23,334 nt of DNA from a virus, in IMG/VR virus record IMGVR_UViG_3300022562_001883, positions 1 through 23,334 of that record; one strand, written 5' to 3'. The notes beneath the pieces were generated by a model. The model was not told the DNA's origin. It ran no database searches and saw only the letters and a list, made by a program, of their open reading frames with translations. Below are positions 2,237 to 23,334 of this stretch, piece by piece. The position numbers and the translations under genes are program-made. Position 1 is the stretch's first letter. Each line of letters begins with the position of its first letter.

Positions 2237-3040
2237 ATGAGAATGAACGCTCCAAAAGAGCTGTTCAGTGATAACAGCTTTGTCCGCTTGAAGGATAAGA
2301 ACTGGTTAGAGAAACAAAGGGTCGCTGGCAGAATTGCTGCCGAGACCCTTTTGCTTTTGGAAAGCTTTATGAAAGGTAAAACTTTTCATTCCATGGCAGT
2401 TCTTAACGAGGTGGCAGAGAATTACATTATCAAGAACGGCGGAACTCCAACTTTCAAGGGATACAAAGGCTTTCCTGCTGGCGTATGCGTTTCCATTAAC
2501 AAAGAATTAGTTCATGGTATCCCCAAAGATACCGTACTAGATGACGGCGATATTGTTAGCTTTGATTTAGGCGTAACGTATCAAGGAGCTATTGCCGATA
2601 CTGCAATAACCTGTATTTTCGGGACGCCCAAATCTGAAAAGCATGTGAAGTTGGTTAAATCTACTGAAGAAGCTCTGATGAAAGGTATTGAAGCAATTAA
2701 GGTAGGTAGAAGGTTAGGCACCATCGGGCAAGCTATTTCTCAACATGCGAAGATAACTGGATTTAACGTGATCAATAATTATGGTGGTCATGGAATAGAT
2801 TGGGACACTCCACACGCTGCCCCTTTCGTGGAAAATAAATCAGATAGCGGGCGTGGAATTCGAATTCAACCAGGATTAGCCATTGCTATAGAGCCGATGT
2901 TTGTAATGGGCTCCGTGACCACAACTACGCTTGCTGATGGTTGGACCGTGGTAACTCCCGATCTAGGAGCGCATTTTGAACACTCAGTATATGTTCATGA
3001 AGATCATGTAGAGATTATTACTGATAGGAGCAAACTATGA
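2237..3040 (+). CDS. map: Type I methionine aminopeptidase
   Basis: This 267-residue protein matches full-length type I methionine aminopeptidase, which removes the initiator methionine from new proteins. All five metal ligands of the pita-bread fold are present: D110 (SFDLG), D121 (IADTA), H185 (GGHGI), E219 (IAIEPMF) and E248 (FEHSV). The substrate-binding histidine H93 (ELVHGIP) is also there. The length equals that of bacterial enzymes (about 250-270), and it lacks the N-terminal zinc finger of eukaryotic type I forms, so the enzyme should be active. The start at 2237 is preceded by AGGTAA; a second ATG two codons on is also possible. The stop overlaps the next start as ATGA. A methionine aminopeptidase is an uncommon phage gene. 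Confidence 0.95.
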   Translation: MRMNAPKELFSDNSFVRLKDKNWLEKQRVAGRIAAETLLLLESFMKGKTFHSMAVLNEVAENYIIKNGGTPTFKGYKGFPAGVCVSINKELVHGIPKDTVLDDGDIVSFDLGVTYQGAIADTAITCIFGTPKSEKHVKLVKSTEEALMKGIEAIKVGRRLGTIGQAISQHAKITGFNVINNYGGHGIDWDTPHAAPFVENKSDSGRGIRIQPGLAIAIEPMFVMGSVTTTTLADGWTVVTPDLGAHFEHSVYVHEDHVEIITDRSKL

Positions 3041-5721: not shown

Positions 5722-5730
5722 GGGAATAAC

Positions 5731-6234
5731 ATGAAATCTACAGACAAATTATTCAAATTAGCTTCTCGTTTAGAAAGAAAGCTTTCATTTAGAAAAATGG
5801 CAGAAGAATTAGGAGATACTGCTATGGTAAATGTTAGGCCACTTCTGAATAAAATGTTAGTAGGACGAGAAGGCGCAGGTAATGCTCCTGATCCACCACC
5901 GCCAGACACTCTTAAGGCAAAAATAATTGCTATCCTAGGTCAAGGTGCGGCTGGAAAGGGTACTATCGAAGTTGGTGGCAGCTTTTTCTTTTCCGCCAGA
6001 AAATCTGGAAATAACTGGGTAGTAACGGAGGGCCATGTAAATGCCTCAGGATCTTTACTACAGGACAAAAAAGTTGGTCCTGCTTTGAAAGCTACCATAG
6101 ATTTATTCAATAAAATTGCAAAAACAAAAATACAGCAGGAACTAAACCGAGTTCGAGACAACCTTGGTGATGCAGACACTATTACTAACATGCAAACTTT
6201 TGTTGACGGTTTTAATTTTACACTTGGTGACTAA
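5731..6234 (+). CDS. Unknown small protein, possibly virion-associated
   Basis: A 167-residue protein with no recognised family. The N-terminus is an amphipathic basic helix (KLFKLASRLERKLSFRKMAE at about 7-26), a type of segment I associate with virion-targeted or internal-head proteins of large phages. A Pro-rich linker (DPPPPD at 54-59) separates it from a domain of about 100 residues with beta strands (GGSFFFSARKSGNNWVVTEG) and a helical end. It sits 9 bases behind the fibre gene with an AAGGGA SD, so the two are probably co-expressed. A role as a fibre partner or minor virion protein is inference; nothing shows an enzymatic activity. Confidence 0.75.
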   Translation: MKSTDKLFKLASRLERKLSFRKMAEELGDTAMVNVRPLLNKMLVGREGAGNAPDPPPPDTLKAKIIAILGQGAAGKGTIEVGGSFFFSARKSGNNWVVTEGHVNASGSLLQDKKVGPALKATIDLFNKIAKTKIQQELNRVRDNLGDADTITNMQTFVDGFNFTLGD

Positions 6235-6262
6235 TTAGAATTGCTTGATATAATTAGAGGGC

Positions 6263-7474
6263 ATGAAAGAATTTGATGTCGGTATAATTGGGGCTGGTGT
6301 TGCGGGCGCTTTTGCTACTTTAAAGTTAGCTAAAGACCACAAAAACGTTAAAACTATCTTATTCGATTTAGGTCGTCCGCCAATGAAGCGTAGACGCCAA
6401 TTGGAAGGATGGTTAGGTTGTTTGCCAAATAGTGATGGTAAACTGTATCAAACTGACATATCCAAAGTGGCAGAGCTTACTGGATTACGTAGAGCAAAAT
6501 CAGCTCATACTTGGTTCAAACACGTAATAGAACATGTTGATAATTATAAAATCATCAAAGATCGTTCTCCTGCGGCTTCCATGGAAAAGAAAATTAAGAA
6601 ACTAGGATACGACCTAAGACTTAATGATTATGTTCAAGTGTATCCAAAAGAAATCCATATGTTATCTAAACATATGGCAGAAATTATTGAACAGAATAAA
6701 AATATTACCTTCAATTTTGACAATGAAGTTCTACGAGTAACTAAACAAAAGAATGTCTTTGTTATTTCAACAGAGGAACAAGAGTTTCGATGTAAGAAGA
6801 TTATAATTGCTGTTGGTAGAAGTGGTTGGCGCTGGGCTAAGGAGCTTTATGCCAACTTCGGTATTATCGATAATAATGATACTGCTAGATTTGGCATTCG
6901 TATCGAAACTAATTCTAGTGTAATGAAAGACTTCAATAAGTCTAATTGTACTTTAATAAAGGCGGATGATCTAGAAATTGGACCGCTTTCATGGTATGGC
7001 ACCGTTATACCAGAAGATCATTTAGATTTAGCTATTTCAGCATTTCGTTCTAATGAAAATAGATGGAAATCTGATAAGGTATCTTTTAACTTAATAGGAA
7101 ATAGACCATTTCCCGATGCAGGCTTTGAACAAACAGATAGAATAGGAAAGTTAACTTTTGTTTTAGCAAATGATAGAATAGTTAAAGAGCGTGTATCTAC
7201 TATTCTATCCGGTAAGAGTAGGATATCTATCATTCCAGAATATGATTGGCTCAAGCCAGTTATTACCGAATTGTCTACACTTATACCTGAGATTTCCAGT
7301 AAAGCATATTTCCACGTACCCACCATTATTCCGTCAGCCCCGAAAATAAATATCGGTGATAATCTAGAGACTGAAGTTGATGGTATGTTCGTGGCTGGTG
7401 AGAGTGCCGGTATTCATGGTATATTAGCTGCTGGAATCATGGGCATTGCCGCTGCTGATGCCGTATGTAAGTGA
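6263..7474 (+). CDS. FAD-dependent oxidoreductase, COG2509-like
   Basis: This 403-residue protein has an N-terminal Rossmann nucleotide-binding motif, GIIGAGVAGAF at 7-17, and a late family-like motif, VDGMFVAGESAGIHGILAAG, followed by GIMGIAAADAV. The second motif closes the FAD site in uncharacterised FAD-dependent dehydrogenases of COG2509 and in some related flavoproteins. The middle (about 170-330) is the variable substrate part, with IIIAVGRSGW as the usual strand-turn after the FAD domain. The exact substrate is not readable. MnmG (tRNA-modifying) proteins share the closing motif style, but this protein is much shorter (403 versus about 630) and lacks the MnmG layout. The start has an unusually close SD (AGAGG, 2 bases before ATG), but later starts would remove the GxGxxG, so I keep it. 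Confidence 0.8.
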   Translation: MKEFDVGIIGAGVAGAFATLKLAKDHKNVKTILFDLGRPPMKRRRQLEGWLGCLPNSDGKLYQTDISKVAELTGLRRAKSAHTWFKHVIEHVDNYKIIKDRSPAASMEKKIKKLGYDLRLNDYVQVYPKEIHMLSKHMAEIIEQNKNITFNFDNEVLRVTKQKNVFVISTEEQEFRCKKIIIAVGRSGWRWAKELYANFGIIDNNDTARFGIRIETNSSVMKDFNKSNCTLIKADDLEIGPLSWYGTVIPEDHLDLAISAFRSNENRWKSDKVSFNLIGNRPFPDAGFEQTDRIGKLTFVLANDRIVKERVSTILSGKSRISIIPEYDWLKPVITELSTLIPEISSKAYFHVPTIIPSAPKINIGDNLETEVDGMFVAGESAGIHGILAAGIMGIAAADAVCK

Positions 7475-7482
7475 GATAAATC

Positions 7483-7857
7483 ATGCCGCCTACCAATAAA
7501 AACAAAAGTAATAATACTCAAGAACCCAACTTTCCTGCTGGTACGCCAGATGAATTAAAAGACAGTAATCTTAAATATAGTCTTAGTAAGTTTGAGTACG
7601 ACTTATATCATGAAGAAGATGATGTAGCGGAGAAGGTAATAAGGGTAAAAAGAGTGTCTATGCCTAATAAAGGTGAGAAGTGGAAAATCTTCGAGGATAA
7701 CAAAGTTATGTTTGTCGTCGAGGGCTCTAAATTGACGAAGAAGGAAAAAGATTTCCTACGCACGATCGATGGGGTAAATTTTTTAATTTCTCAGTACAAG
7801 CAGGGCATCAAGTCCTTTAATTCTCTGAAAAACGAAATCAAGAAAAGATTGAAATAA
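7483..7857 (+). CDS. Unknown small charged protein
   Basis: A 124-residue hydrophilic protein of unknown family, directly behind the FAD gene. The first 25 residues are Asn/Pro-rich and probably disordered (TNKNKSNNTQEPNF). The rest is strongly charged, with an acidic patch (YHEEDDVAE) and a very basic C-terminal helix (SLKNEIKKRLK). KGEKWKIFEDNKVMFVVEGS looks like a small beta sheet. There is no membrane segment or cysteine motif. The short GTGAG-containing leader overlaps the FAD stop codon region. I cannot offer a function. Confidence 0.7.
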   Translation: MPPTNKNKSNNTQEPNFPAGTPDELKDSNLKYSLSKFEYDLYHEEDDVAEKVIRVKRVSMPNKGEKWKIFEDNKVMFVVEGSKLTKKEKDFLRTIDGVNFLISQYKQGIKSFNSLKNEIKKRLK

Positions 7858-7863
7858 TCGGAC

Positions 7864-7926
7864 TTGACGCTTTATTATTGATTCTTACATTGCGGGGAGC
7901 GGTTTGCTCCGACAGAGGTGTATTGC
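7864..7926 (+). promoter_or_regulatory. Candidate promoter and leader before exonuclease operon
   Basis: This stretch is among the longest non-coding gaps in the window (69 bases with its flanks). TTGACG at 7864-7869 and TACATT at 7886-7891 are 16 bases apart and resemble sigma70 -35 and -10 boxes. A 5-bp hairpin, GGAGC-GGTTT-GCTCC, lies at 7896-7910, and the SD AGAGGTG at 7914-7920 is 6 bases before the ATG at 7927. The -10 match is modest. There is no T run, so the hairpin is not an obvious terminator. Confidence 0.35.
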
Positions 7927-8547
7927 ATGAATTATGTATTTTATGTTGCTGATATTGAAACTACCGGCTTGGATTCTCATATCCATGACGTAATTGAATT
8001 GTCACTATCTAGAATAGGCGACTCAAGTGAAAACGCCCAAAAGACTTGGTGTTTTAAACCAATCAGTCCTGATAAGATTGATATGGGATCCCTGAAGGTT
8101 AACGGTCATAAACTAGAAGACCTATTGCATAAAACCAAGGAAGGGCGTGAGCGATATCTAGATCCCAACCTAGCGATAGTTGATGTAGAAAATTGGCTAT
8201 CCGAAGATGGCGTGCCAGCCGAGAAGAGATTTTTGATTGGACAAAACATCGGATTCGACAAGGATAGACTAGAACAACTTTGGATCAAATGCAATTCTAG
8301 AGATTCATTTCCCTTTGGTCGTAGACTAATGGATACGATGATGAATGAATTGTTTTTTGATTTTTGCCGCGGACAGTTTGCGGAAGGTTATGGCTTGAAC
8401 GCTTTGGTTAAAAAGTATGGCGTCAAGAATGAAAAGGCCCACACCGCTGCGGCTGACGTAAAAGCAACCAAAGAAGTATTTGAAAAGCAAGTCGAACTGA
8501 TGAGAAAGCTCATCAAGCTAGGAGAAGACGCCGGTCTTTTTAAATGA
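7927..8547 (+). CDS. DEDDh 3'-5' exonuclease
   Basis: A 206-residue exonuclease of the DnaQ/RNase T type. Residues and motifs: D9 and E11 in DIETTG (Exo I), D111 in NIGFDKDR (Exo II), and H172 with D177 in KAHTAAADVKA (Exo III), giving the DEDDh set complete, so it should degrade single-stranded DNA or RNA from the 3' end. The protein is one domain without a polymerase fusion. I start it at ATG 7927 rather than the in-frame GTG at 7918, because AGAGGTG at 7914-7920 is placed as an SD for the ATG and the GTG lies inside it. The last four bases overlap the glycosyltransferase-like gene (ATGA), so the two are co-translated. Confidence 0.9.
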   Translation: MNYVFYVADIETTGLDSHIHDVIELSLSRIGDSSENAQKTWCFKPISPDKIDMGSLKVNGHKLEDLLHKTKEGRERYLDPNLAIVDVENWLSEDGVPAEKRFLIGQNIGFDKDRLEQLWIKCNSRDSFPFGRRLMDTMMNELFFDFCRGQFAEGYGLNALVKKYGVKNEKAHTAAADVKATKEVFEKQVELMRKLIKLGEDAGLFK

Positions 8548-11160: not shown

Positions 11161-11937
11161 ATGGCAGTTGACGCGGGCTTTGAAAGCTATTTTAACAAAT
11201 TGATTAGCGAGGTCAAGAGTTTGTTTACCTCGAAGGCGCCCCAGGCTACCCCTGCGCCTCAAAAGGAATTTGTAGCGTCTCCTGGTGGCTACAGCGCACC
11301 AATTCGCGGCACTTGGCACAACCTCGGAGGCTTTAGCCCAAGCATGGCTCGCTATGATGATTTAGCTAAAAATCCTAAAGCCACTAAGGGACGAGGTCAT
11401 TTTGGTGTAGATATGGGCGCACCGGCCGGAACTCCTGTTTATGCTGTGGGAGCGGGTACAGTGTCTACCACTGGTACAGATAAAATGGGCGGTAATATTG
11501 TAGGGGTACAGCATCCAGATGGTCTTTGGTCCTACTATGCTCATCTTTCTACTGTCAAAGTACAAAAAGGTGATAGAGTCGATAAAAACACCATTGTTGG
11601 AACGGTAGGTAACACAGGTAATCCAGGCAATCCTAAAGATCCATACGTGACTCAAGAAGGTGGCAGAACCTGGCCACACTTGCATTTCGGAGTTAAAGAT
11701 CACGGCCAATGGGTTGATCCCGCAAAACTATTCAGCATCCCACAGTATGACGCTGCTTATGCTAAAAATCCTGGTAAGTATCAAAAATTCTGGTTATCGG
11801 ATCAGTCTAAACAAGAGGCTCAGGCATTTAATATGCAACAACACATAGCGAATCGCCGAGTAGCCTTCTCTAGAGATGTGGATCGCTTGATGAAGGTAGC
11901 ATTTGAATTCGCCAAAGTTAGCGGTCGATCCAAGTAA
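11161..11937 (+). CDS. M23-family metallopeptidase
   Basis: A 258-residue lysostaphin/LytM-type endopeptidase that should cut peptide bridges of peptidoglycan. The zinc ligands are H80 and D84 (GHFGVDMG) and H175 (HLHFGV; H173 is the helper), with a catalytic H128 in YYAHL. The core strands GTPVYAVGAGTV and KGDRVDKNTIVGTVG follow the family. There is no signal peptide; a 40-residue Ala/Pro-rich N-terminus precedes the core. The C-terminus (about 205-258) is an extra helical part ending DRLMKVAFEFAKVSGRSK, so the protein may be virion-attached rather than soluble. No SD is visible within 15 bases of ATG 11161, which is unusual here. The last 20 bases overlap the convergent gene C2. Confidence 0.85.
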   Translation: MAVDAGFESYFNKLISEVKSLFTSKAPQATPAPQKEFVASPGGYSAPIRGTWHNLGGFSPSMARYDDLAKNPKATKGRGHFGVDMGAPAGTPVYAVGAGTVSTTGTDKMGGNIVGVQHPDGLWSYYAHLSTVKVQKGDRVDKNTIVGTVGNTGNPGNPKDPYVTQEGGRTWPHLHFGVKDHGQWVDPAKLFSIPQYDAAYAKNPGKYQKFWLSDQSKQEAQAFNMQQHIANRRVAFSRDVDRLMKVAFEFAKVSGRSK

Positions 11938-12250
11938 GAACTACTTCAATATTAGATAGTGTGTTGCCACTAGGTGGCGTTAGTAATGGTTTACCCGTAG
12001 AAAACCATACTTCATGTTTTTGGGTAGATGAATTGTATCCTTGCATCTTGAAGTATGTATTAAATCCGTGTGTTAGCTTGCCGGTAAGATTAGAATTATA
12101 CTCAACAAGTTGAGCACTCGGCCCATAAGTTTGTGTTGGTGTTTCAAAGAAACTAGAAAAATCATCGTTTCCTGCGTTCGCGGCATATTGACCATTCCAT
12201 TCTAGAAACGTCAAAAATCCATAAATGTTTTGGTCTAAAGCAATAGCCAT
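11918..12250 (-). CDS. Structural protein, family C (C2)
   Basis: A 110-residue protein paralogous to the 169-residue protein at 19546-20055. They share YFKMQGYN...Q-HEVWF versus YYKLVGYN...QTFETWV, and TPPSGNTLSNIEVVLTWI versus TPPSGHSLVNIKIVGRWI at the very end. The N-terminus (MAIALDQNIYGFLTFLEWNG) is its own. It lies six bases behind A3 with no good SD, so it is probably translated by coupling. Its 3' end overlaps the M23 gene on the other strand by 20 bases. It is likely a small virion-surface or baseplate partner of the A and B proteins, by context only. Confidence 0.75.
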   Translation of the reverse strand: MAIALDQNIYGFLTFLEWNGQYAANAGNDDFSSFFETPTQTYGPSAQLVEYNSNLTGKLTHGFNTYFKMQGYNSSTQKHEVWFSTGKPLLTPPSGNTLSNIEVVLTWIDR

Positions 12251-12256
12251 TTTAAA

Positions 12257-14755
12257 TCAGGTTAATCCACCCGCTCCATTCCACTGTAAATAAATTCCAT
12301 TCTGTAGATGTAGCCAGCGTGACGTTCCTTGTACGGTACCACCACCAGTATATGTACCACTTCCTGAACTTCCTGTTAATGTAAAGTGCGTGTTATCGAT
12401 TACAGTAATAACCCAAGTACCGTTGGCAGCAGTATTTCCTGTCACGTCCTTGATAATAACAGTTTGTCCGGTGGTTAAAGCATTGGCCGATGAAGTAGTA
12501 ATCTGGATTGGAGATGCATTGGTCGCACCACTGATAGTGGAGGTTGCTGTACTATCTGTGGTTAAAGTAAAATCTCCAAAATTGGTTCTGCCCTGTCTAA
12601 GGAACGGTGCTGTTCCCATAAATCTCTGGTTGAGAGACCAATAAATAGGTAAGTCAGTTCCATATGGAAGAGATAATCCGGGATTATTTAATTGCCCTGC
12701 CCAAATTTCCCAAGGGAATAACTCAGTAGCGCTAGTAAAAGGATTATCACCAGCATTTGCTGAAAATACGGGAGAAGATCCGCTTCCGTCAGCATACGTT
12801 AATCCCGCAATCATACACATTTCTGGTGCGCTATCACGATAGGTAAATCCAACATTGACTTGATTACCCCCTCTCATTCTGATACCCCCATAATCAGGAG
12901 TGGCACCGGTACTACTGCCATACACGAATATTCTGTTGCTATCTACCGGTAATGGTGAAGGTTCATTTTCTGGCAATCCAAATGTTATTAATCCGTTACT
13001 TCCGCCAGTTTGCGCTCTAGCATAACAAAAAACTGCTCTTCCAGTATCATCACCGACTGCCGTTATACGAGGAGCATTACTAGCATTGGCAGATCCTGTT
13101 ACCGTATATGCATAAGCGCTTCCAATCTGTATATTTCCGTCTAAATACTGTGGTGTAAGAGTTGTTATTCCGCCCGCAGTAAAATCACCAGATGAAATAC
13201 CACCATAGCCTACACTGATAGATGTATATGGAACTACAGACGGTACGTTGTACGGATCTATAGAAAGTCTAACTTGCCAGCCAGTTGAATGAGGACTTTG
13301 CAATAAAATTTTACTATTGAATGAAAGGGGGCCTGCCGTATAGCCCGTACGTGTTATAGTTCCGCCACTGGTATAAGTTCCGTTACCAGAAGAGCCGTTC
13401 AACAATACGGTATTATAACCATTAACAGTAATAGTCCAGGTACCATTAGCATTTGTATTGCCGTTAACCCCAGAGACAATAACTCGTTGTCCTGTTTTAA
13501 AATTACCCATTGTGGTAACATTATAGGTAATTTGTATAGGTGTAGTATTGGTAGCTGCCGTTACGCCCCAACTTGATTGACCTTCATTCGTCTGCAAGAC
13601 ATAGTTTGAAGCTTGTGTTTCAATTTCATATAACCACCAACTCATTCCGCTTTCTGGCGGTGGAGTGTCGGTTGATCGATAATTGATAGTATAAGAATTA
13701 GAAGCCGTATTCGTAGTCGTAATCTTAAATACTCCGGAATTTTTGGTTGGGTAAAGATTACTTTTTAGTACTAGAATGCGTCCGGTATCACCTGCAAAAG
13801 GAGCCGTACCATTTACAACTGTTCTGGCAGTAGATTCAACGCTAACTGCATAGACAGAAGGGGCGCCTCCAAAGTTAATACTGGCATTTGTTCCAGAAGC
13901 AATTAGCATTCCCCCTGGAAATAAAGTTTGCGCATTAGTTGTGTAAGCTCCTCCGCCAGTGCTTCCAACTAATTTTAACTGAGTAGAATTGATAACTTCC
14001 ACTTGATATGGATTGTAAGGAATAATGGTAGATATTGGGGAACCAGCTCCACCAATAGAAGCATATTCTCCCGTAGTCATGCCATGTGGAAATGTAGTTG
14101 TGATAGTCCACGGTGCACCCGAAGCGGCAAGTATTTTGTTTTGTCCGCACGTAACATTACCACCCGCAGATGTAACAGCTCCACCAACTGATGTGCTTCC
14201 TGTACCACCAGAACATCCTGTAAATGAGGTGGCAGTAACTCCAGTGTATGTTACTATTTGTGGGCCAGCACTGGTAACCACATAAATTGTTCCATTGGTT
14301 GGAAACCCTGTTGTTGAGGTTACGTTAATTGTAGCTGTGGGTAATGCTTGAACACCAGTTGTTGTAGTGGCAACTGTTGCTGTCATTGTTCCGGTGCCAC
14401 CAGTACAATTAGTAAAAGTAGTTGCGGTTGTACCAGAATATTTAACTCTTTGTATCCCGTCACTCGTGGTTACATAAATTAATCCACTTGCTGGAAAGCC
14501 GGAGGTAGATCCAACAGTAATTGTTGATTGAGGAAGTATTTGTCCGTTGGAAGCTACATCTATGTTAGTACTAGCAGACGCAGAAAAGGGCTGGCTATTA
14601 TCACTATCTAAATTGAAACCGGTTTGTCCAACTATTGAATAGCCCAATACCCTATGCATGAATAAGGCTAAACAGTATAGATATGGCGTGAAAAGCATAT
14701 TGCCAACATAACCAGAAGTGGCAGAAGGATAATCTCGTAAAACATGAACTGTCAT
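12257..14755 (-). CDS. Large structural protein, family A (A3)
   Basis: An 832-residue beta-rich protein of family A. Core landmarks: N-terminal LRDY and FMHRVLGYSIVG (about 32-43); GDTGRILVLKS (322-332); SNSYTINYRSTDTPPPES; KILLQSPHSTGWQVRL (482-497); GLPENEPSPLPVDSNRIFV; FMGTAPFLRQGRTNFGDF (712-729); the end WLHLQNGIYLQWNG. It holds two copies of the short LPQSTI module (about 66-127 and 133-190) and three copies of the FCCH-like domain (about 205-275 divergent, 400-467, 743-809). The last copy sits between the GRTNFGDF and WLHLQNG core segments. The start is 1 base from the B2 stop, with its GGAGG SD inside the last B2 codons. Likely a fibre, spike or other virion surface protein. Confidence 0.85.
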   Translation of the reverse strand: MTVHVLRDYPSATSGYVGNMLFTPYLYCLALFMHRVLGYSIVGQTGFNLDSDNSQPFSASASTNIDVASNGQILPQSTITVGSTSGFPASGLIYVTTSDGIQRVKYSGTTATTFTNCTGGTGTMTATVATTTTGVQALPTATINVTSTTGFPTNGTIYVVTSAGPQIVTYTGVTATSFTGCSGGTGSTSVGGAVTSAGGNVTCGQNKILAASGAPWTITTTFPHGMTTGEYASIGGAGSPISTIIPYNPYQVEVINSTQLKLVGSTGGGAYTTNAQTLFPGGMLIASGTNASINFGGAPSVYAVSVESTARTVVNGTAPFAGDTGRILVLKSNLYPTKNSGVFKITTTNTASNSYTINYRSTDTPPPESGMSWWLYEIETQASNYVLQTNEGQSSWGVTAATNTTPIQITYNVTTMGNFKTGQRVIVSGVNGNTNANGTWTITVNGYNTVLLNGSSGNGTYTSGGTITRTGYTAGPLSFNSKILLQSPHSTGWQVRLSIDPYNVPSVVPYTSISVGYGGISSGDFTAGGITTLTPQYLDGNIQIGSAYAYTVTGSANASNAPRITAVGDDTGRAVFCYARAQTGGSNGLITFGLPENEPSPLPVDSNRIFVYGSSTGATPDYGGIRMRGGNQVNVGFTYRDSAPEMCMIAGLTYADGSGSSPVFSANAGDNPFTSATELFPWEIWAGQLNNPGLSLPYGTDLPIYWSLNQRFMGTAPFLRQGRTNFGDFTLTTDSTATSTISGATNASPIQITTSSANALTTGQTVIIKDVTGNTAANGTWVITVIDNTHFTLTGSSGSGTYTGGGTVQGTSRWLHLQNGIYLQWNGAGGLT
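12329..12529 (-). repeat. FCCH-like module near the A3 C-terminus
   Basis: Residues about 743-809 of A3 (GATNASPIQITT to TYTGGGTVQ) form the FCCH-like module, including TGNTAANGTWVITVIDNTHF. In A1 and A2 the corresponding core site, between the GR-N(F/Y) and QH-R-G segments, holds no module. Confidence 0.75.
13355..13558 (-). repeat. FCCH-like module in the A3 middle
   Basis: Residues about 400-467 of A3 (NTTPIQITY to YTSGGTITRT) form another copy, with NGNTNANGTWTITVNGYNTV. It lies just before KILLQSPHSTGWQVRL, a core segment shared with A1 and A2. Confidence 0.7.
14186..14560 (-). repeat. Pair of short LPQSTI modules in A3
   Basis: Two copies in a row: LPQSTITVGSTSGFPASG...TYTG-like and LPTATINVTSTTGFPTNG...TYTGVTATSFTGCSGGTG. 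They sit near the N-terminus, before the FCCH-like copy and the GDTGRILVLKS core segment. Divergence between copies is high, so they are not recent DNA duplications. Confidence 0.7.
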
Positions 14756-14756
14756 T

Positions 14757-16709
14757 TTAGGTTCCTCCAGCTAAAATTGGATATGGCAATATAGACCCAT
14801 CCCAAGGCATTAATATACCATTAGCCAGATGAATATATTCTCCTTTATTACCGACTAAATAATTAGTCGGCACTGAACTTGAGGTAAGTCTAAAAGGTCT
14901 AAATCTTGCTCTAGCAAGTGAAAATTGCCCAGTTGCTACCGTAGACATTAATGGTTCACTTGTTATCATTTGTCCAGTTTGACTTTGAAATGCTACATAA
15001 GTAGACAAACTTGAGCCGGTTGTATAGGCGGTTCCAACAGATGCATTACCTGTGTCGCCCACTAAGTTTCTAGTAATAAGGTTAGAAGATCTGGTTATTC
15101 CGTCAGTTCCAACCATACCAAAATAGTTACAAATAGAATCATTACCGGTTGTAGAATTTAAACCATTTCCACCAACCCATGTTGCCAGTACGTTTGGATC
15201 TTGTGTTTGAGTATACAGTCTTTGTGGAGTAATAACAGAGAAATAAAATCCTTTAGTAGTACCCGAACCATTTGAGTTGCTGGATAAAATGTGTCCAAAA
15301 AGAAAATCGGTATCGGCACACATAGTAACGAATCCAGTTACGTTTATGGCAGTGCCGCTATAGTTTAAACCATTTGCATTAGTTCTTTCTGATATTGGAG
15401 TATTTGATCCTGTTCCAGAAAATCCGGAACCATTCCAACTGTTAGTTGGAGATCCAACTATACCTAATTGTCCATATGCATTTGCACTGCCTCTTAGTAT
15501 AAATTGAAATTGACTAACAGCTTGACCAGAATTGATGCTCGGCGCACCTTTCAAATTTCCAACAAAATAATTGCCGTTGGCTACTGATAACTGAGAGGCA
15601 CCAACTAAATCAATTACTCGATAACATAGAGAGGCTCTAGACGTTAAATTATTTTTCAAAGTAGAAATATCTGGAGTACCACCACTAAACGGTACTAATC
15701 TTACTTGTGAACTAGAATTGACTTCAATAATTTTATAAATGGAATCGTCAGTACTTGGTTGATTAACAGATACAGATGCATTTAGATCTAGATATCCAGT
15801 TCCACCAGAACATCCCGTTAAAAATGGTGCTGTTACAGTATCTCCAGTTACTACGGTTCCAGTACCTCCAGTACATCCTGTAAACGATGTTGCTGTAATA
15901 CCTGTATAAGTAATTATTTGTTCTCCGGTGGTAGTTTTTACATTAAATGTTCCACTGGTTGGAAATCCTGTCGTGGAAACAACATTAACGGTAGCCTGAG
16001 GAAGAACAGCATTATTCGATAAAGAAGAAATAGTTGTATTTGGAATTGAAGCATAACTAACTGTCTGTGTACCGTCGCTAGTTACTACAAATACAGTTCC
16101 TGATGCTGGGAACCCTAAGGTATTGACCACATTAATTGTATTTTGTGGTAATGATAATCCAGCCATAGAAGGGGCTGTTCCAGTTCGAGCGCCCGGCAAC
16201 CAGATAACTACATGTTTGCCGGCCATGCCTACAGTGAATGGAGTGGAACTAGCTGCCGTAAGTGTAGGGCCTATGGCTGATGTAACCCCATCATTTCCAA
16301 TTGCTAAGACGGATGATCCCTCGAAAAATCCTGATGGGCCACTAACTGGGCTGGTTGGAATACCACCAGGTATTACGATTGTGCCGCCTCCAGTATAGGT
16401 AGCGTTACCAACTGCTCCGGATAAATTAAACGTGGTAGGACTTTGAACGTTAACTAAAAATCCACCGTTAGCATTAGTATTACCCTGAACGCCATAAACT
16501 CCGACTAATTGATTAGTAACTAATCCGTGCGGAGTAGATGTAGTTATTTGAATTGGGTTAGCATTAGATGCAGACAATACTGTAAGAAAAGAACTATTGC
16601 CGTTAACACAATAAGCCCAAAACTCATAACACAGTTTCATAAAGATAGGAATATCTCTACCATTTGTACCGGTTGTATATTGTAATCCTCTAAGATATTT
16701 CCTTGCCAT
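14757..16709 (-). CDS. Large structural protein, family B (B2)
   Basis: A 650-residue protein of family B, paralogous to the partial B1. Shared landmarks: KHVVIWLPG (165-173) with B1 KALVMWKPG; DDSIYKIIEV with EDSIYVITGV; FSGGTPD with LNTGGTPD; YRVIDL with YRIVDM; FYFSVITPQRLY with LHVEIPTRLY; LARARFRPFRLTSSSVP with LGRARIRTIKLTSTPLP; and the end YIHLANGILMPWDGSILP with FLNIQNGIAIIWDNTILP. An FCCH-like copy lies at about 45-114 and short modules at about 176-318. The N-terminus starts MARKYLRG, as MARHLLRD in A2. The SD AAGGG is close upstream. Likely a virion surface or fibre component. Confidence 0.85.
   Translation of the reverse strand: MARKYLRGLQYTTGTNGRDIPIFMKLCYEFWAYCVNGNSSFLTVLSASNANPIQITTSTPHGLVTNQLVGVYGVQGNTNANGGFLVNVQSPTTFNLSGAVGNATYTGGGTIVIPGGIPTSPVSGPSGFFEGSSVLAIGNDGVTSAIGPTLTAASSTPFTVGMAGKHVVIWLPGARTGTAPSMAGLSLPQNTINVVNTLGFPASGTVFVVTSDGTQTVSYASIPNTTISSLSNNAVLPQATVNVVSTTGFPTSGTFNVKTTTGEQIITYTGITATSFTGCTGGTGTVVTGDTVTAPFLTGCSGGTGYLDLNASVSVNQPSTDDSIYKIIEVNSSSQVRLVPFSGGTPDISTLKNNLTSRASLCYRVIDLVGASQLSVANGNYFVGNLKGAPSINSGQAVSQFQFILRGSANAYGQLGIVGSPTNSWNGSGFSGTGSNTPISERTNANGLNYSGTAINVTGFVTMCADTDFLFGHILSSNSNGSGTTKGFYFSVITPQRLYTQTQDPNVLATWVGGNGLNSTTGNDSICNYFGMVGTDGITRSSNLITRNLVGDTGNASVGTAYTTGSSLSTYVAFQSQTGQMITSEPLMSTVATGQFSLARARFRPFRLTSSSVPTNYLVGNKGEYIHLANGILMPWDGSILPYPILAGGT
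15756..16184 (-). repeat. Short LPQSTI module array in B2
   Basis: Residues about 176-318 of B2: a truncated first copy (SLPQNTINVVNTLGFPASG), a complete second copy (VLPQATVNVVSTTGFPTSG to TATSFTGCTGGTG), and a remnant (PFLTGCSGGTGYLDLN). The array splits a core loop that is continuous in B1 (WKPG then EDSIY). Confidence 0.75.
16368..16577 (-). repeat. FCCH-like module in B2
   Basis: Residues about 45-114 of B2, NANPIQITT to YTGGGTIVI, with NTNANGGFLVNVQSPTTF. It sits near the N-terminus, unlike the copies in A proteins. The conserved NGTW is NGGF here. Confidence 0.7.
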
Positions 16710-16716
16710 TTTTCCC

Positions 16717-19539
16717 TTAAGTTACTACGGGCGGGCCGTTCCATAACATCCACAAACCTCTTCTCATATGCTGAGCTACTAAGTCTGCGCTTGTGCTATA
16801 TTCTGCGTAATTTGCTCTTCCTTCCCTTATATGCGGAATAGTTCCCAGGAATCTACCTTGAGATATTGGAAAGCCATAATTTGAATAATTGTTGTTATTC
16901 CAGGTGAAAAAACTTCCAGAAATAAGATCAACTGGGAAAAGCTCTACTCCACCAAACCAAGGAGTATCGCCTGCAGAACCATCAAAAATAGGACTGCCTA
17001 GTGCCGAATTACCGGCAGCGTATGCAAGCAAAGATGCGCAAACAGATACTGGGATAGAGTAAGTTCCGTGGTTAACAGACCTTGTAATACCCTGAGCATA
17101 TAATCCTCCGCTGCTGAGGTTGCCTGGGTACCAACTCATATCGTTTAGGTAGCCTCCTCCAGTACCACTATATCCTGAGCCAATAACAAAAAGACGCGCT
17201 TCATCATTGCTAGGTAATGGTGTAGCTTCACTATCACACATTCCGTAGGTAACAAAATATGAACGTGGGTTACTGGCATTTCCAGGTCTGCGAGCAAACA
17301 TAGAAACTCCGTATCCGTCAGTATCTCCCACTATGGTAATTCTGTACACCATTGAATTAAAACTAGTAGGGAAATTTTGATTATCCCCGAAACCTGGAAT
17401 TCCTCCCTGAAATTTATTATCGTTTGAATTAAAGAAAAGAGCGGTATGTAAATGTTTACCGGTGGCAGGGAAATCTCCAGATGAATCGCCCTCAAATCCT
17501 GGTATTGTGCTAATCATTGCACATTCTGAACTCTGGGAAAGGAAGTTTACACTACCAGAATCATCGATCGTTTCGTGACAAACCCTAATTTGCCAGCCTA
17601 AAGGATGAGGACTTTGCAAAATTATTCGTGGAGCAGTAGAGGTGCCATTCCCTCTATATTGACTCGTTGTATTGCTATTATTTGTATTTTCAAAAATAAC
17701 ATATCCGTAGTCAACAAATCCAGCCCCTGATATTCCTGTAAAGCCAAGTTTACCACCGTAGGTTCCAGTCCCAGAATAAGTAACTTGTTGCCATGAAAGA
17801 TTAGTTGTTAATACGTACAACTTCCCGTTTGAAAATGGTATGCTTGAAGGATCGCCGTACAAAGTTGCTGGTAAATTAACATACGGTATAGTTACCGTGC
17901 CTCCGCTCGTATAAGTTGTTGAAGCTCCCCAACTTGATCCATTTAGAGTGAATGTATTGCTTCCAGTTACAGTAACAACCCATGTTCCATTAGAGCTATT
18001 GTTGGCGCCTACTACACCAGAAATAGTAACATAATTTCCCGTAGTGAGACCATGACTTCCTGAAACGGTGACAGTATAAACTGATCCTGTCGTACCAGTT
18101 TCATTCGTTATAGTAAAAGTAGGCGATGAAAGGAATGTAATTGGCGATTGAGGTACACATAAAGAATCGGATTCATATAAATACCAATTCATACTATCTG
18201 CAGCTTCAATTGGTGGAACATTAGGAGAATAATATACAAGATTACTGGTGCTCATAACACCTGTTCCGCCTGTACAACCGGTAAAAGTTGTGCTTGTGGT
18301 GCCAGTATATGTTACCTGTTGAACGCCAGTGCTGGTGGTTACGTAGATGATTCCTCCAGTCGGAGAAAATCCTGCTACGACCGCATTGCCGGTTGACATA
18401 CGTCCAGTACCACCAGTACATCCGGTAAAGGTAGTGGCTGTAGTTCCAGTATAAGTGACTAGTTGAGGACCACTTGCAGTTGTAACATAAATTCTACCAT
18501 TTGTTGGAAATGAAGTGGTGGATGAAACGTTGATTGTTCCAGTTGGCAAAGATACATTGTTAGAAGAGGCGGTAATTGTAGTCGTACCGGTTGTAGTAGA
18601 AGCAACATTGATAGTTGTTTGTGGAAGTGATAATCCGTTAGAGCCAGCAGCAATAGTAGTATTTGTGGTAGTAGCAATTACAGAGGCGCCTGTTCCAATA
18701 GCTGATGCAACTCCTCCCACGATAGTGCCAGTTCCCCCTGTACATCCTGTAAAGTTGTTACCAGATATACCAGTGTAAGTAATAGTCTGGCGGCCGGCAC
18801 TTGACCAGAGGAAAAATGTCTGTGGACTAGATGTTGTGGCAGCAGGAAAACCAGTTGTTGATGTACTTATTATAGTAGATTGTGGTAGTGATAATTGGGA
18901 ATTAACAGCGTATCCAGTTTTTATTGTGCCAGTTCCACCAGAACATCCCAAAAATTGTGTGCTGTTAATGCTAGTGTAAGTAATTGTTTGGACACCAGCA
19001 GTTGATACTACTTTAATAGTCCCGCTGCTAGGAAATCCTGTAGTTGATGATACATTGATAGTACTTGTCGGAAGCGCAGCGTTGTTAGAACTGCTTGCAA
19101 TACTTGTCGCGCCACCAATATATGTTCCGCTCCTATAATCTACAACATATGAATTGCTAATAGACTCGAAATTGGTGATTAGGAAACATCCAGAATTTGA
19201 TTGTGGATTTGTGTCACTTTTAAGAACCAAAATCCTGCCAATATCCGAAGAGCTAACGACTCTGGTACCGACTGGAACAGAAACGTTGAATTCTTTATCT
19301 AATCCCAAATTGATACCTGCTCTATCACCCCCAGCAAAAGTAGGTGTTCCTGTTGGAGTGGAGTCTGCTGTTGAAATAAGAAAACTTCCGACAGAATTAA
19401 TAGGATAATTAGTATCACCAACATAAGAATAGCCAAGTACTCTTCTCATGAAAATGGTTAAAAGATATGAGGCTACAGATGTAGATGTAGGGGTATTAAA
19501 ATTGGGAGAAACATAATCTCTTAGTAAATGTCTTGCCAT
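16717..19539 (-). CDS. Large structural protein, family A (A2)
   Basis: A 940-residue family A protein, longest of the group. Core landmarks: LLRDY, IFMRRVLGYSYVGDTNYPIN (29-48), SDIGRILVLKS (98-108), ISNSYVVDYRSG (127-138), VPPIEAADSMNWYLY (441-455), PRIILQSPHPLGWQIRVCHE (637-656), YRITIVGDTDGYG, ARLFVIGSG, LGTIPHIREGRANYAEY (898-914), and the end LWMLWNGPPVVT. Between YVVDYRSG and VPPIEA lies an array of about 300 residues of short modules; in A1 those two core segments are adjacent. An FCCH-like copy is at about 475-552 and a distant short module at 553-617. The SD TGAGGT, containing the C1 stop, precedes the ATG. Likely a virion surface protein. Confidence 0.85.
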   Translation of the reverse strand: MARHLLRDYVSPNFNTPTSTSVASYLLTIFMRRVLGYSYVGDTNYPINSVGSFLISTADSTPTGTPTFAGGDRAGINLGLDKEFNVSVPVGTRVVSSSDIGRILVLKSDTNPQSNSGCFLITNFESISNSYVVDYRSGTYIGGATSIASSSNNAALPTSTINVSSTTGFPSSGTIKVVSTAGVQTITYTSINSTQFLGCSGGTGTIKTGYAVNSQLSLPQSTIISTSTTGFPAATTSSPQTFFLWSSAGRQTITYTGISGNNFTGCTGGTGTIVGGVASAIGTGASVIATTTNTTIAAGSNGLSLPQTTINVASTTTGTTTITASSNNVSLPTGTINVSSTTSFPTNGRIYVTTASGPQLVTYTGTTATTFTGCTGGTGRMSTGNAVVAGFSPTGGIIYVTTSTGVQQVTYTGTTSTTFTGCTGGTGVMSTSNLVYYSPNVPPIEAADSMNWYLYESDSLCVPQSPITFLSSPTFTITNETGTTGSVYTVTVSGSHGLTTGNYVTISGVVGANNSSNGTWVVTVTGSNTFTLNGSSWGASTTYTSGGTVTIPYVNLPATLYGDPSSIPFSNGKLYVLTTNLSWQQVTYSGTGTYGGKLGFTGISGAGFVDYGYVIFENTNNSNTTSQYRGNGTSTAPRIILQSPHPLGWQIRVCHETIDDSGSVNFLSQSSECAMISTIPGFEGDSSGDFPATGKHLHTALFFNSNDNKFQGGIPGFGDNQNFPTSFNSMVYRITIVGDTDGYGVSMFARRPGNASNPRSYFVTYGMCDSEATPLPSNDEARLFVIGSGYSGTGGGYLNDMSWYPGNLSSGGLYAQGITRSVNHGTYSIPVSVCASLLAYAAGNSALGSPIFDGSAGDTPWFGGVELFPVDLISGSFFTWNNNNYSNYGFPISQGRFLGTIPHIREGRANYAEYSTSADLVAQHMRRGLWMLWNGPPVVT
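17884..18117 (-). repeat. FCCH-like module in A2
   Basis: Residues about 475-552 of A2, with HGLTTGNYVTISGVVG and SNGTWVVTVTGSNTFTLNGS. It lies after the MNWYLY core segment and before PRIILQSPHPLGW, close to the same region as the middle copy in A3 but with different flanks. Confidence 0.7.
18229..19107 (-). repeat. Array of short LPQSTI modules in A2
   Basis: Residues about 145-437 of A2 hold at least four copies plus partial ones. Full copies have LPTSTINVSSTTGFPSSG...GVQTITYTS...GCSGGTG, a second with an insert (GFPAATTSSPQTFFLW), a third with TINVSSTTSFPTNGRIYV, and a fourth starting at GGIIYVTTSTGVQQVTYTGT. Two short copies in the middle are broken or fused (SLPQTTINVASTTTG). DNA-level similarity is moderate, so the copies have diverged since duplication. 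Confidence 0.8.
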
Positions 19540-19545
19540 TATACC

Positions 19546-20055
19546 TCACTGAATCCATCTGCCCACGATTTTAATATTCACAAGACTGTGGCCCGATGGC
19601 GGAGTAAAATATACTCCATAGTCTACGTTTGGAACATTTCCTGTAGGATCGAAAGTTTCTGGTCTAGTTACAATGTCTTCTGCAATGACCCAAGTTTCAA
19701 AAGTTTGATCTAAAGGATTATATCCAACTAACTTATAATATATCTGTTGATCTTTTGGCCATGGTACTACTGGCTGATTATCATATAAATATGAATTACC
19801 CAATGCGGTAGGTATTGTTACATCAGCATTAAAATCAATTGTAAACCCATTATATGTTTGTGGCGTTACACCGTCTAGAACATTAAGATTTACTTCTGCC
19901 GAAAAACTAGCAGAATATGCTCCAGTATAATCTATGTTAGCGTCACTTCCTACTGCTGCGGTGTCAGTATTCAGGGCGCCATATGTGTTACTAGAGCCGC
20001 CCCAAGTAGGATTATTTCCTAGTGCCGGCAAGCTAAGACTCTGTGCGTTACTCAT
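19546..20055 (-). CDS. Structural protein, family C (C1)
   Basis: A 169-residue beta-rich protein with the C-terminal motif TPPSGHSLVNIKIVGRWI, paralogous to the 110-residue C2. The extra N-terminal 60 residues (SLPALGNNPTWGGSSNTYG onwards) are specific to this copy. I start it at ATG 20055, not at the in-frame ATG 20112: the later start overlaps the A1 stop exactly as ATGA and is preceded by AGGTGG, while the longer form would overlap A1 by 61 bases. It lies between A1 and A2 in the transcription unit and is likely a small virion-surface or baseplate partner; the function is inferred from context. Confidence 0.8.
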   Translation of the reverse strand: MSNAQSLSLPALGNNPTWGGSSNTYGALNTDTAAVGSDANIDYTGAYSASFSAEVNLNVLDGVTPQTYNGFTIDFNADVTIPTALGNSYLYDNQPVVPWPKDQQIYYKLVGYNPLDQTFETWVIAEDIVTRPETFDPTGNVPNVDYGVYFTPPSGHSLVNIKIVGRWIQ

Positions 20056-21803
20056 GGCACCACCTGTGGGCCATTCCAAGTAATGTAAACTCCACTTCTT
20101 AAATGCTGCCAAGCACGATTTGCATCATTACTCGTAGTATACTGTCCAAAATTGGATCTACCACTTCTAATATGAGGAATAGGACCAATCATGCTTGGTT
20201 CGAAGGGAAATATATCTGGATTATATGGATTTGTGCTTCCATTCCAAGAAGCAATAGTTCCGCTAATTAAATCGACAGGAAGTAACTGTGTAGTAAATCC
20301 CCATGGATCATCACTTGCAGATCCATCAAATCCTGGACTTGTGTAGATGGTAGCTCCCGTACTGTATGTCCATAAAGAAGGAGAGCAGCTAACTGGAACG
20401 CCTCCGAGAGACATGCTAACGCCTTGAACAACACTGTTCTTTGTATAGCTATTTCCGAAGGAGGCTCCAAAACATGCCCCTGTAGATAAGCTAATGTTAT
20501 TTAAACTCTCTCCAAAGTCGCCGTTGCTACTTGAACTTATTCCGTTGCCAATGCAGAAAAGTCTAGCTGTGTTATTAACTGGTAATGGTGCTGGTTCATT
20601 TTCTGGTACACCAATAGCAAATAATTGTGATCTTGGGTTTGTTGCATTAGATTGTCTACGATAAACTAGAACAACACCTTGCCCGCCATCATCTCCAACT
20701 ATTGTTATTCTAGATTGAGCGCCATAATAACTAGTAGGAGAGTAAATATATCCGTGATACCATGGTGCACCAAATCCAGGACAATTTCCTGACATATAGG
20801 AGTTTGCTCCATATGCATTAGCATCATATGTTCCTGAATAAAATAAAGCTGTGTGAAGATGTGGTCCGCCCACAGCAAAGTCTCCAAAAGAATCGCCCCC
20901 AAATCCAGGGCTTGCAGTCATAACTGGTACTGATCCGGTTGCACCGTTTGTTTGACCAATATTACGGGCCCAATCAAAATATGCTTCGTGACATATTCTT
21001 GTTTGCCATCCTAGTGCGTGAGGACTTTGAAGAATAATTCTTGGTGTAGTAGAATTTCCGTTGCCACCATAAGTTGATGGCCAAGTACTATTTACTGTTC
21101 CCTGTACAGGGGCAAGTGAATCAGCAGCGTATAGCCACCACTCCATACTATCGAACGCTTCAACTGGAGGATAGCTTCCCATGGTTCTATAATCGATAAC
21201 ATAGGAGTTAGTTGTTACTGTACCTGTGCTACCTGTTCCATTACCAGTGGCGGGAATGGTAAACGTGTTAGCTCCTGTTACAGTAATTGTCCAGGTACCA
21301 TTAGCATTGGTATTTCCTGTTACACCCGAAATAGTAACTGTTTGCCCAGTAGTTAAGGTAGTTGTAGTGCTAGTAGTAATAGTTATTGGGTTAGTATTAG
21401 AAGCATTAGAAACTGTATATGTGTTCGATTCAAAACCGTTAATTAGAAAAATTCCTGAATTATAAGTTGAATTGGCCGTACTTTTTAGTACCAATAGTCT
21501 CCCAACATCTGCTACACTTACAACTCTAACAGAAGGCGGTACCCATACATAAAATTCCCTTCCATCTCCTTGATTAATGCCTGCTTTAGTTCCTGCTGCG
21601 AAAGTTGGAGTTACTGTTGGAGTGGAATCAGCAGTGGCGATAAGTAATGTTCCCACAGAATTGATTGGATAATTAGTATCTCCCACATAAGAGTATCCTA
21701 ATATTCTTCTCATAAAGATGGATAGTAAATATCCTGGAATCCACTGTCTGTTTCCACTATTTACATTTTGTTCTATGTAGTCTCTAACTGTATGGATGGC
21801 CAT
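20052..21803 (-). CDS. Structural protein, family A (A1)
   Basis: A 583-residue family A protein and the closest to the inferred core. Landmarks: TVRDYIEQ, IFMRRILGYSYVGDTNYPIN (29-48), ADVGRLLVLKS, TNSYVIDYRTMGSYPPVEAF (198-217), DSMEWWLYAAD, PRIILQSPHALGWQTRICHE (254-273), SRITIVGDDGGQG, GVPENEPAPLPVNNTARLF, IGPIPHIRSGRSNFGQY, and the end LRSGVYITWNGPQVVP. It has no short-module array and only one FCCH-like copy (about 128-198), placed directly before NSYVIDYR. The SD AAGGA is 7 bases before the ATG. Likely a virion surface protein. Confidence 0.85.
   Translation of the reverse strand: MAIHTVRDYIEQNVNSGNRQWIPGYLLSIFMRRILGYSYVGDTNYPINSVGTLLIATADSTPTVTPTFAAGTKAGINQGDGREFYVWVPPSVRVVSVADVGRLLVLKSTANSTYNSGIFLINGFESNTYTVSNASNTNPITITTSTTTTLTTGQTVTISGVTGNTNANGTWTITVTGANTFTIPATGNGTGSTGTVTTNSYVIDYRTMGSYPPVEAFDSMEWWLYAADSLAPVQGTVNSTWPSTYGGNGNSTTPRIILQSPHALGWQTRICHEAYFDWARNIGQTNGATGSVPVMTASPGFGGDSFGDFAVGGPHLHTALFYSGTYDANAYGANSYMSGNCPGFGAPWYHGYIYSPTSYYGAQSRITIVGDDGGQGVVLVYRRQSNATNPRSQLFAIGVPENEPAPLPVNNTARLFCIGNGISSSSNGDFGESLNNISLSTGACFGASFGNSYTKNSVVQGVSMSLGGVPVSCSPSLWTYSTGATIYTSPGFDGSASDDPWGFTTQLLPVDLISGTIASWNGSTNPYNPDIFPFEPSMIGPIPHIRSGRSNFGQYTTSNDANRAWQHLRSGVYITWNGPQVVP
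21210..21422 (-). repeat. FCCH-like module in A1
   Basis: Residues about 128-198 of A1: NTNPITITTSTTTTLTTG and NTNANGTWTITVTGANTFTI. The copy interrupts the core between INGFES and NSYVIDYR, which are nearly adjacent in A2 (NFESISNSYVVDYR). Confidence 0.75.
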
Positions 21804-21813
21804 TCTAAATTCC

Positions 21814-23334
21814 TTATATAATATATAGCAAGTTATTTGGTAAGATTGTATTGTCCCAAATTATAGCAATTCCATTTTGGATATTAAGGAACTGATCTCC
21901 TCCCGGAGATCCAAATCTATGGTATAGTGGTAATGGTGTGCTAGTAAGCTTAATAGTTCTAATTCTAGCCCTACCAAGAGAATATTGATTAGCAACACCT
22001 GGTAAGCAGAGAACAATATCCGATGCTAGAACTGATCCTCTTGACGTATTAAAAGATATTCTGTAATCTGTTAAGTTAACTCCAAATACCGGGCTAGCAT
22101 CACCAGATATAGATTTAGCTAAGGAATAGTAAGTTCTTACTGTACCATCTGTTCCCTTCATAGCAAAACCGCGTCCGAAATTTTGTCCGCTACTGGTACC
22201 GATACCGAAAACAGAGCCGTTAAATACTCCGCCTCTGTGTATACAGGCCATTGGATTTGTATCAGAAGATGCTGCATACAGTCTTGTTGGAATTTCAACA
22301 TGTAAGTAGGCAGACCCGTCTCCGCTGTTTATATCTTTGTAATGCATTAGGAAGAAGGTTGGATCAGCCGCCATAGTTATAGCTACGTTGCCGTTAGGAC
22401 CACCGTTATAGATACCTCCACTTAAACTTGTAAATTCGGCGGGAGCATCAATTTGGTAATCTCCTGTAACTGGGAATGTAAGTCCATTCCAGTTTCCACC
22501 TGGTGATAGAGTGATTCCCATGTATCCGCTCGTGCGGTACGAAACTTTAACTTGACTGTTTGCTTGACCAGGATTTAATCCTTGGGAAGATGGATTAAAC
22601 TGTAGTGTAATAAAGTTACCATCTGCAAATCCAGTGCCCGAATTTTGAGCATTACCCATATCTACGATACGATAATTTATATTACTACGTTCATTGAAGG
22701 ATGGATGTAGCGTGATTGTATCGGGAGTTCCACCAGTGTTGAGATTTACTCTAATCGTATTTGGGCTTATTACACCAGTAATAACATAAATACTGTCTTC
22801 ACTGCTACCGGATCCAGGTTTCCACATAACCAAAGCTTTATTGGTCATATCTTTAACTAAAGCTTGCTGTGTGCCACCACTGGTCCAATTTCCATTAGGA
22901 CTAGAATTGTTCAGATAGAAGTTAGAATAGTCAACTAATGTACCACCGCTTGTATAAGCGCCAGCCCCTAATGCTCCGTTAAGAGATAGAACGTTATCAA
23001 AACTGTTAAGAGGCGTTACAGTAAATGTACTACTAGCATTTGGCATGCCACCAATTCCTGCAGTAATTGTTGTATTACCAGATAATAGCGTGCTTGGCCT
23101 ATCCAACACCACCGATATAGAAGAGTTAATGCTACCATAGGTAGACATAGTTCCAGAACCGCCAGAAGCTCCTGTGAAAGTAGTGGCCGTAGTTCCTGTG
23201 TAAGTAATTGGATAGGTACCTGTGGAACTTGTGATGAAAATAGTTCCGGTTGGCGCATAACTTATAAATACTGGACCCCCGGTTGACATAGTTCCAGAAC
23301 CGCCCGAACATCCTGTAAATGTAGTTCCTGTGAT
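21814..23334 (-). CDS. Structural protein, family B (B1), partial
   Basis: At least 506 residues of a family B protein whose N-terminus lies beyond the right end of the window. An ATG at 23289 looks like a start, but the frame stays open to the last base, and the 15 codons before it (GTTFTGCSGGSGT) are repeat-module sequence, so 23289 is internal. Visible parts are the ends of two short modules, a degenerate FCCH-like piece (residues about 66-120 counted from 23289), and then the family B core: KALVMWKPG, EDSIYVITGV, NTGGTPD, YRIVDM, VEIPTRLYAAS, LGRARIRTIKLTSTPLP, and the end FLNIQNGIAIIWDNTILP. The stop is 10 bases before the A1 start. Confidence 0.8.
   Translation of the reverse strand: MTGTTFTGCSGGSGTMSTGGPVFISYAPTGTIFITSSTGTYPITYTGTTATTFTGASGGSGTMSTYGSINSSISVVLDRPSTLLSGNTTITAGIGGMPNASSTFTVTPLNSFDNVLSLNGALGAGAYTSGGTLVDYSNFYLNNSSPNGNWTSGGTQQALVKDMTNKALVMWKPGSGSSEDSIYVITGVISPNTIRVNLNTGGTPDTITLHPSFNERSNINYRIVDMGNAQNSGTGFADGNFITLQFNPSSQGLNPGQANSQVKVSYRTSGYMGITLSPGGNWNGLTFPVTGDYQIDAPAEFTSLSGGIYNGGPNGNVAITMAADPTFFLMHYKDINSGDGSAYLHVEIPTRLYAASSDTNPMACIHRGGVFNGSVFGIGTSSGQNFGRGFAMKGTDGTVRTYYSLAKSISGDASPVFGVNLTDYRISFNTSRGSVLASDIVLCLPGVANQYSLGRARIRTIKLTSTPLPLYHRFGSPGGDQFLNIQNGIAIIWDNTILPNNLLYII
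22930..23094 (-). repeat. Degenerate FCCH-like module in B1
   Basis: A shortened and diverged copy (SSTFTVTPLNSFDNVLSLNG, then GAYTSGGTLVDY). The conserved NGTW core is missing, so the piece is recognised mainly by the LNG-x-GAYTSGGT end. Confidence 0.5.
23110..23334 (-). repeat. Short LPQSTI-type modules at the window edge (B1)
   Basis: The right-hand end of the window holds the tail of one module (TGTTFTGCSGGSGTMSTGG) and a second with IFITSSTGTYPITYTGTTAT then TFTGASGGSGTMST. The array probably continues beyond the window. Confidence 0.65.

Follow-up and report, generated by a model that had tools for sequence, protein, structure and literature searches.

What do seven closely packed, paralogous genes of virion type build in a tailed phage, and how did such an array arise? 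This question is raised by the window analysed here, the entire 23,334-base IMG/VR virus record IMGVR_UViG_3300022562_001883, which is part of the genome of an uncultured contractile-tailed jumbo phage. To our knowledge, only a minority of the structural proteins that jumbo phages carry have been identified. A first-pass annotation had described seven closely coupled minus-strand genes of three families (A, B and C), transcribed in the order B1-A1-C1-A2-B2-A3-C2, and had read them as a B-A-C cassette present twice with one additional A. Open reading frames for all seven genes were found in place and in this order, with gaps of 1 to 10 nt or overlaps between them, a coupling that is kept in related jumbo phages. 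The related genomes compared were uncultured contigs throughout.

Gene content and core homology

The first gene, B1 (21814-23334), encodes a B-family virion-type protein that the tree places as a first-pair B orthologue; it is cut by the end of the record, leaving the C-terminal 506 amino acids of a protein that has about 1257 in relatives. A1 (20052-21803; 583 amino acids) is an A-family virion-type protein by core homology and an AF2 model. C1 (19546-20055; 169 amino acids) is a small C-family protein supported by BLASTP and by core and ten-sequence alignments, and it starts at the ATG overlapping the A1 stop (ATGA, 20055) rather than at the TTG at 20112. By core homology and tree, A2 (16717-19539; 940 amino acids) is an A-family sister duplicate of A1, and A3 (12257-14755; 832 amino acids) is the third-pair A orthologue; B2 (14757-16709; 650 amino acids) is the third-pair B orthologue by core homology, tree and AF2 model. 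The last gene, C2 (11918-12250; 110 amino acids), was taken from the list of open reading frames and belongs to the C family by the ten-sequence alignment. An M23 peptidase gene (11161-11937) is convergent with C2 and overlaps its 3′ end by 20 bp.

Plain BLASTP groups the seven genes by family, yet it also strongly links A genes with B genes. The latter similarity arises because two inserts, M1 and M2, are common to both. These module inserts, absent from the first-pass annotation, are the main source of both the size of the A and B genes and their similarity. Cores were therefore compared as the proteins left after removal of M1 and M2, which were defined by iterated profiles. End-to-end alignments were obtained for the cores of A1 and A2 (46% identity, E 1e-134), A1 and A3 (31%, E 4e-54), A2 and A3 (32%, E 7e-52), and B1 and B2 (33%, E 7e-39). 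The match of C1 to C2 is weaker (33% over 63 amino acids, E 1e-5), and the ten-sequence alignment supports the C family. Every within-family core score was greater than the best of 40 shuffles, whereas between-family scores did not. After module removal, the three families are thus homologous well beyond chance, as had been proposed from motifs. Those motifs are present in every member with two exceptions: A3 reads GRTNFGDF, which changes the fourth A motif to GRxNxxx[YF], and B1 reads LVMWKPG, which changes the first B motif to [LV]V[MI]WxPG.

Searching IMG/VR with A and B profiles yielded about 16 contigs, the longest of 480 kb, and further rounds with different profiles added none. In 50,697 annotated phage records, tblastn with A1, B2, one M2 and two module-free relatives as queries detected no homologue of A or B, a search in which the low-complexity filter may hide module-only matches. 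A profile search of genome contigs with the B profile returned no relative and hence no hint of the host.

Fold and genomic setting

Both the A and the B proteins are rich in beta structure, and a distant relationship between the two families is probable, supported by one N-terminal stretch. Their stripped profiles gave an hhalign score of 35.1 over 147 N-terminal columns, compared to a decoy maximum of 27.6 from 120 shuffled alignments and 14.2 for the reversed control. A stronger A/B match with modules retained (E 4e-31) was discarded, as it runs through M2 only. The A1 model (pLDDT 81, pTM 0.90) and the weaker B2 model (mean pLDDT 68.5, pTM 0.72) both retrieve a 387-amino-acid protein of Acidovorax phage ACP17 (A0A223AJ03), with probability 1.00 and 0.98, the core fold matches being partial (TM 0.25-0.38). 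HMM comparison detected no sequence relation between the ACP17 proteins and the array. The ACP17 gene (33321-34484, assigned by length only) is separated by about 6 kb from one whose annotation reads T4-like gp6 baseplate wedge, and a fold relative in KL1, its gene likewise assigned by length only, directly follows the tape measure. The unnamed BFVD entries A7KUT2-4, which we take to be proteins of Bacillus phage 0305phi8-36, match the B2 model by fold. Endosialidase matches of the A1 model (TM about 0.1, rmsd 28) were rejected.

In PHROGs and Pfam, none of A, B and C matches a characterised fibre, spike or chaperone family, and sequence searches of the PDB gave no match of A or B to a family of known function. 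The neighbours of the array include fibre-like and LamG proteins and matches to PHROG "virion structural" families, and some match PHROG tail fibre and baseplate families. The contigs of relatives also encode Baseplate_J proteins and sheath-like proteins, the latter below the Pfam cut-off. The virion-type setting proposed earlier is supported, and the array lies in a tailed-phage genome among structural genes.

Together, fold, neighbours and contractile tail point with moderate confidence to an operon-like array of paired, tail- or fibre-associated virion proteins. Gene order suggests that the B and A proteins pair; each B-A pair would then form one heteromeric piece of the assembly, with the small C proteins as possible partners. 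An alternative is that the array proteins decorate the capsid instead of the tail. PHROGs of the head and packaging category are matched by the LamG neighbours, and phrog_1645 (category head; "virion structural protein") by another nearby gene. The array lies about 45 kb from Baseplate_J in contig G003, so a head-decoration role is still compatible with the map. Capsid decoration is nevertheless unlikely, given the fibre-like neighbours and the position of the fold relatives, by gene length, near baseplate genes in ACP17 and after the tape measure in KL1.

Several other genes lie around the array. A 566-amino-acid fibre-like protein (4021-5721) contains a short stretch of collagen type and matches PHROG tail fibres; its homologue in contig G001 carries an M2. 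Upstream of B1, contigs G002 and G003 (loci L034 and L036) have three tandem LamG proteins. A Peptidase M24 (methionine-aminopeptidase-like; 2237-3040) and an FAD-type oxidoreductase (GIDA/Pyr_redox matches; 6263-7474) are unusual cargo near structural genes. A PhoH/PIN protein is encoded at 248-1561; by Pfam, a PhoH/PIN gene also lies directly before the array of locus L046 in the clade of G005, with homologues in L047, L048, L049 and L053. PhoH and the array therefore keep company across both clades described below.

Related arrays and their history

Gene orders in relatives were determined from A and C searches of whole records and from maps of open reading frames. Three contigs (G002, G003 and G004; 480, 359 and 210 kb as a set) have the same B1-A1-C1-A2-B2-A3-C2 order and match the window gene for gene, including most flanking genes. 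Complete arrays of the form (B-A)(B-A-C)(B-A-C) are found in G001, L050, L051 and L052. Those of G005, L046 and L047 consist of three B-A pairs and have neither C homologues nor modules; the arrays of L044, L048, L049 and L053 are interrupted by contig ends. All complete relatives outside the window clade carry three B-A pairs, and no lone A or B occurs among the complete arrays of the IMG/VR relatives. Locus L048 has a first-pair B of 1089 amino acids (4801-8070) that contains neither M1 nor M2 but a large insert or extension of a different kind. In the clade without C, related proteins of 153-165 amino acids follow the last A (L041, 8115-8582; L044, 7394-7855; L047, 15763-16260); at the position of C2, they are possibly its functional counterpart.

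The trees relate the copies in the window to these pairs. A1 and A2 form a sister pair in the A tree (98/97) that leaves A3 outside, and the first-pair As of G001, L050 and L052 join this pair next (91/89); A3 falls with the third-pair As (100/100). The B tree groups B1 with the first-pair Bs (90/87) and B2 with the third-pair Bs (100/100). According to the ten-sequence alignment, the C proteins come in two forms: C1 is long like the second-pair C of G001, and C2 is short like the other C of that contig. B1, A1 and C1 therefore seem to be a mosaic in which first-pair and second-pair genes are combined. Because of the placements of A1, A2, A3, B1 and B2, the window order is best seen as derived. 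Most simply, the middle B-A pair would have been lost in the window clade and A1 duplicated, in an array descended from three B-A pairs as its inherited units.

The earlier description, B-A-C twice with one added A, holds as a statement of gene order but not of history. A literal cassette duplication would fit the observed order, and the homology of C1 and C2 leaves room for a more ancient B-A-C duplication from which pairs 2 and 3 would descend. However, no duplication of the cassette as a two-copy block was recovered, since A1 and A2 are sisters, B1, A1 and C1 have mixed pair origins, and the relatives carry B-A pairs with or without C. We therefore regard the literal reading as quite improbable.

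The two deep clades, with and without C, have no position-orthologous pairs in common. AU tests rejected joining the same-position genes of the two clades for the first-pair A (p 6e-46), the third-pair A (p 3e-4) and the third-pair B (p 0.006), with groups that were named after the tree was seen and with long branches or gene conversion as possible contributors. A single ancient triplication common to both clades is at odds with these tests. Separate triplication in each deep clade and gene conversion are both possible.

The copies might also be a reservoir of host-range alternatives, as the first-pass annotation had suggested; a single copy, or a small subset, would then serve at any given time. 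Paralogous beta-rich proteins with variable inserts would suit such a reservoir. It is disfavoured because every copy is intact and keeps a position-specific orthologue (about 58-68% identity in four phages); in addition, the genes are closely coupled, and no silent cassette was seen among the open reading frames of the array. A host-range reservoir is accordingly a poor candidate, and a paired assembly is preferred; all copies may sit together in one fibre or spike, the other proposal of the first-pass annotation.

Inserted modules

The first module, M1, spans about 69 positions in its iterated profile and is an E1-FCCH-like beta domain. It matches Pfam E1_FCCH (PF16190) in four window proteins (best E 4e-10); relative to the cut-off of 29.5 bits, A3 (40.1) and A2 (30.0) score above and A1 (28.2) and B2 (23.7) just below. 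The A1 model retrieves UBA1 and UBA6 chains with probability 1.00 over about 120 columns, and its M1 residues, at pLDDT of about 90-95, adopt the FCCH fold. Pfam searches matched no E1 adenylation domain in any array protein; M1 is therefore an FCCH-like module and not an E1 relative. Profiles place M1, always on the minus strand, in B1 (divergent; 22930-23142), in A1 after core column 129 (residues 132-199; 21207-21410; Pfam E1_FCCH E 2e-6), in A2 (residues 480-551; 17887-18102; not found in three orthologues), in B2 after core column 44 (residues 45-113; 16371-16577) and three times in A3 (residues 208-280, divergent, 13916-14134; residues 399-469, 13349-13561; residues 742-810, 12326-12532).

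The second module, M2, has a fixed length of about 67-68 amino acids, profile E-values down to 1e-32 and invariant Cys, Gly and Tyr residues, and had no family or PDB match of note in Pfam and PDB searches. Profiles located all copies, again on the minus strand. Simple copies occur in A2 (residues 147-214, 18898-19101; residues 210-281, divergent, 18697-18912) and in tandem in A3 (residues 65-132 and 128-196; 14168-14563). In B2, a nested pair (15765-16178) consists of an inner copy at residues 227-294 (15828-16031) within outer halves at 178-229 and 291-315. The A2 nest (18229-18654), with the same topology in G002-G004, has an inner copy at residues 322-389 (18373-18576) between outer halves at 296-321 and 388-437, and its split point, at M2 model position 22, differs from that of B2. 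The truncated B1 of the window retains an M2 fragment (model 45-67; 23263-23334) and an M2 lacking its N-terminal third (model 23-66; 23122-23268), the outer half of a nested pair. Full-length B1 in G002-G004 reads N-part, N-part, full copy, C-part, C-part, which is balanced; in G003, the further outer pair comprises an N-part near 413-433, placed by eye, and a C-part at 645-697. As judged from these sequences, M2-in-M2 nesting is at least three deep. Simple tandem duplication cannot account for the N1-N2-C2-C1 order.

Relatives provide the graded states of one site. B core column 106 is empty in L050 and L052, holds a single undivided M2 in G001, and holds an M2 split by an M2 in the window and in G002-G004. 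Insertion sites recur at A core columns 57, 62, 127-129, 140, 175 and 453 and at B core columns 44-63, 91, 106 and 221; at one A site (columns 126-129), the second- and third-pair As hold M2 where A1 holds M1. The nested stretch of the B2 model is mostly below pLDDT 50. No target-site duplication was evident by eye on the protein at the B2 nested junction. Module copies are found mostly in the array and adjacent fibre-like genes of the 200-480 kb contigs, and few lie elsewhere. Recent copying was considered and set aside: copies within a genome share at most about 60-74% DNA identity, and where the module trees are resolved, they branch mostly by gene position. A third type of insert, 179 amino acids long, occurs in a LamG protein adjoining the array, at residue 43 in G002 and residue 214 in L050 and L051, and is missing from G003 and G001.

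It is extremely improbable that the modules reflect low-complexity convergence of Thr/Gly/Ser-rich sequence rather than homologous domains, for although composition is biased and DNA identity between copies is limited, M1 has E1_FCCH matches with the matching fold, M2 has a strong profile of fixed length with invariant residues, and relatives differ by exactly empty and occupied sites.

M1 and M2 have entered the cores in frame, repeatedly at the same few sites, with M2 entering existing M2 copies as well, and recombination between module repeats may be the copying route. The inserts may serve to extend and diversify the exposed surface, in the way of the Ig-like domains of other phages. Tentatively, M2 could be a self-inserting module that spreads through virion genes in frame, prefers a few core sites and a few positions of its own sequence, and builds Russian-doll proteins. 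On the same tentative view, exactly three B-A pairs would have arisen, or would have been homogenised, independently in each of the two deep clades, which would hint at a structural need for three.

Comparison with known systems

The locus is of interest in three respects. First, A and B are two families, met only together here, that lack a homologue in the annotated phage records. Second, the graded empty, single and nested inserts between relatives offer a tractable case of surface-protein growth by internal insertion. Third, the array is a case for asking whether three B-A pairs build one three-part structure. A literature search gave no description on point of self-nesting domains or of FCCH in phages.

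Phage Ig-like domains are mostly terminal and are often added by frameshift. Unlike them, M1 and M2 in the array are internal to cores, and M2 inserts into M2. Both kinds are small beta modules fused in frame to unrelated virion proteins; Ig-like domains are promiscuous among the structural proteins of tailed phages (Fraser et al. 2006, as cited in PMC10684548). As for M1, BFVD already labels phage proteins "FCCH domain containing"; what sets M1 apart is that it recurs as an insert across two families of paralogues and has no ubiquitin-type context.

Compared to the array, the 387-amino-acid ACP17 protein is similar in fold to A1 and B2 and unlike them in sequence. Bacillus phage 0305phi8-36, a large contractile phage, has repeated paralogous virion domains that have been proposed to anchor additional structures, curly fibres among them (PMC2147016), and by this description the array resembles it in having paralogous virion domains in a large contractile phage. 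Domain mosaicism in phages is concentrated in structural and host-contact proteins (PMC10684548, in whose text the word "nested" does not occur). The array and the mosaic receptor-binding and baseplate proteins of that study are alike in the shuffling of domains within structural proteins.
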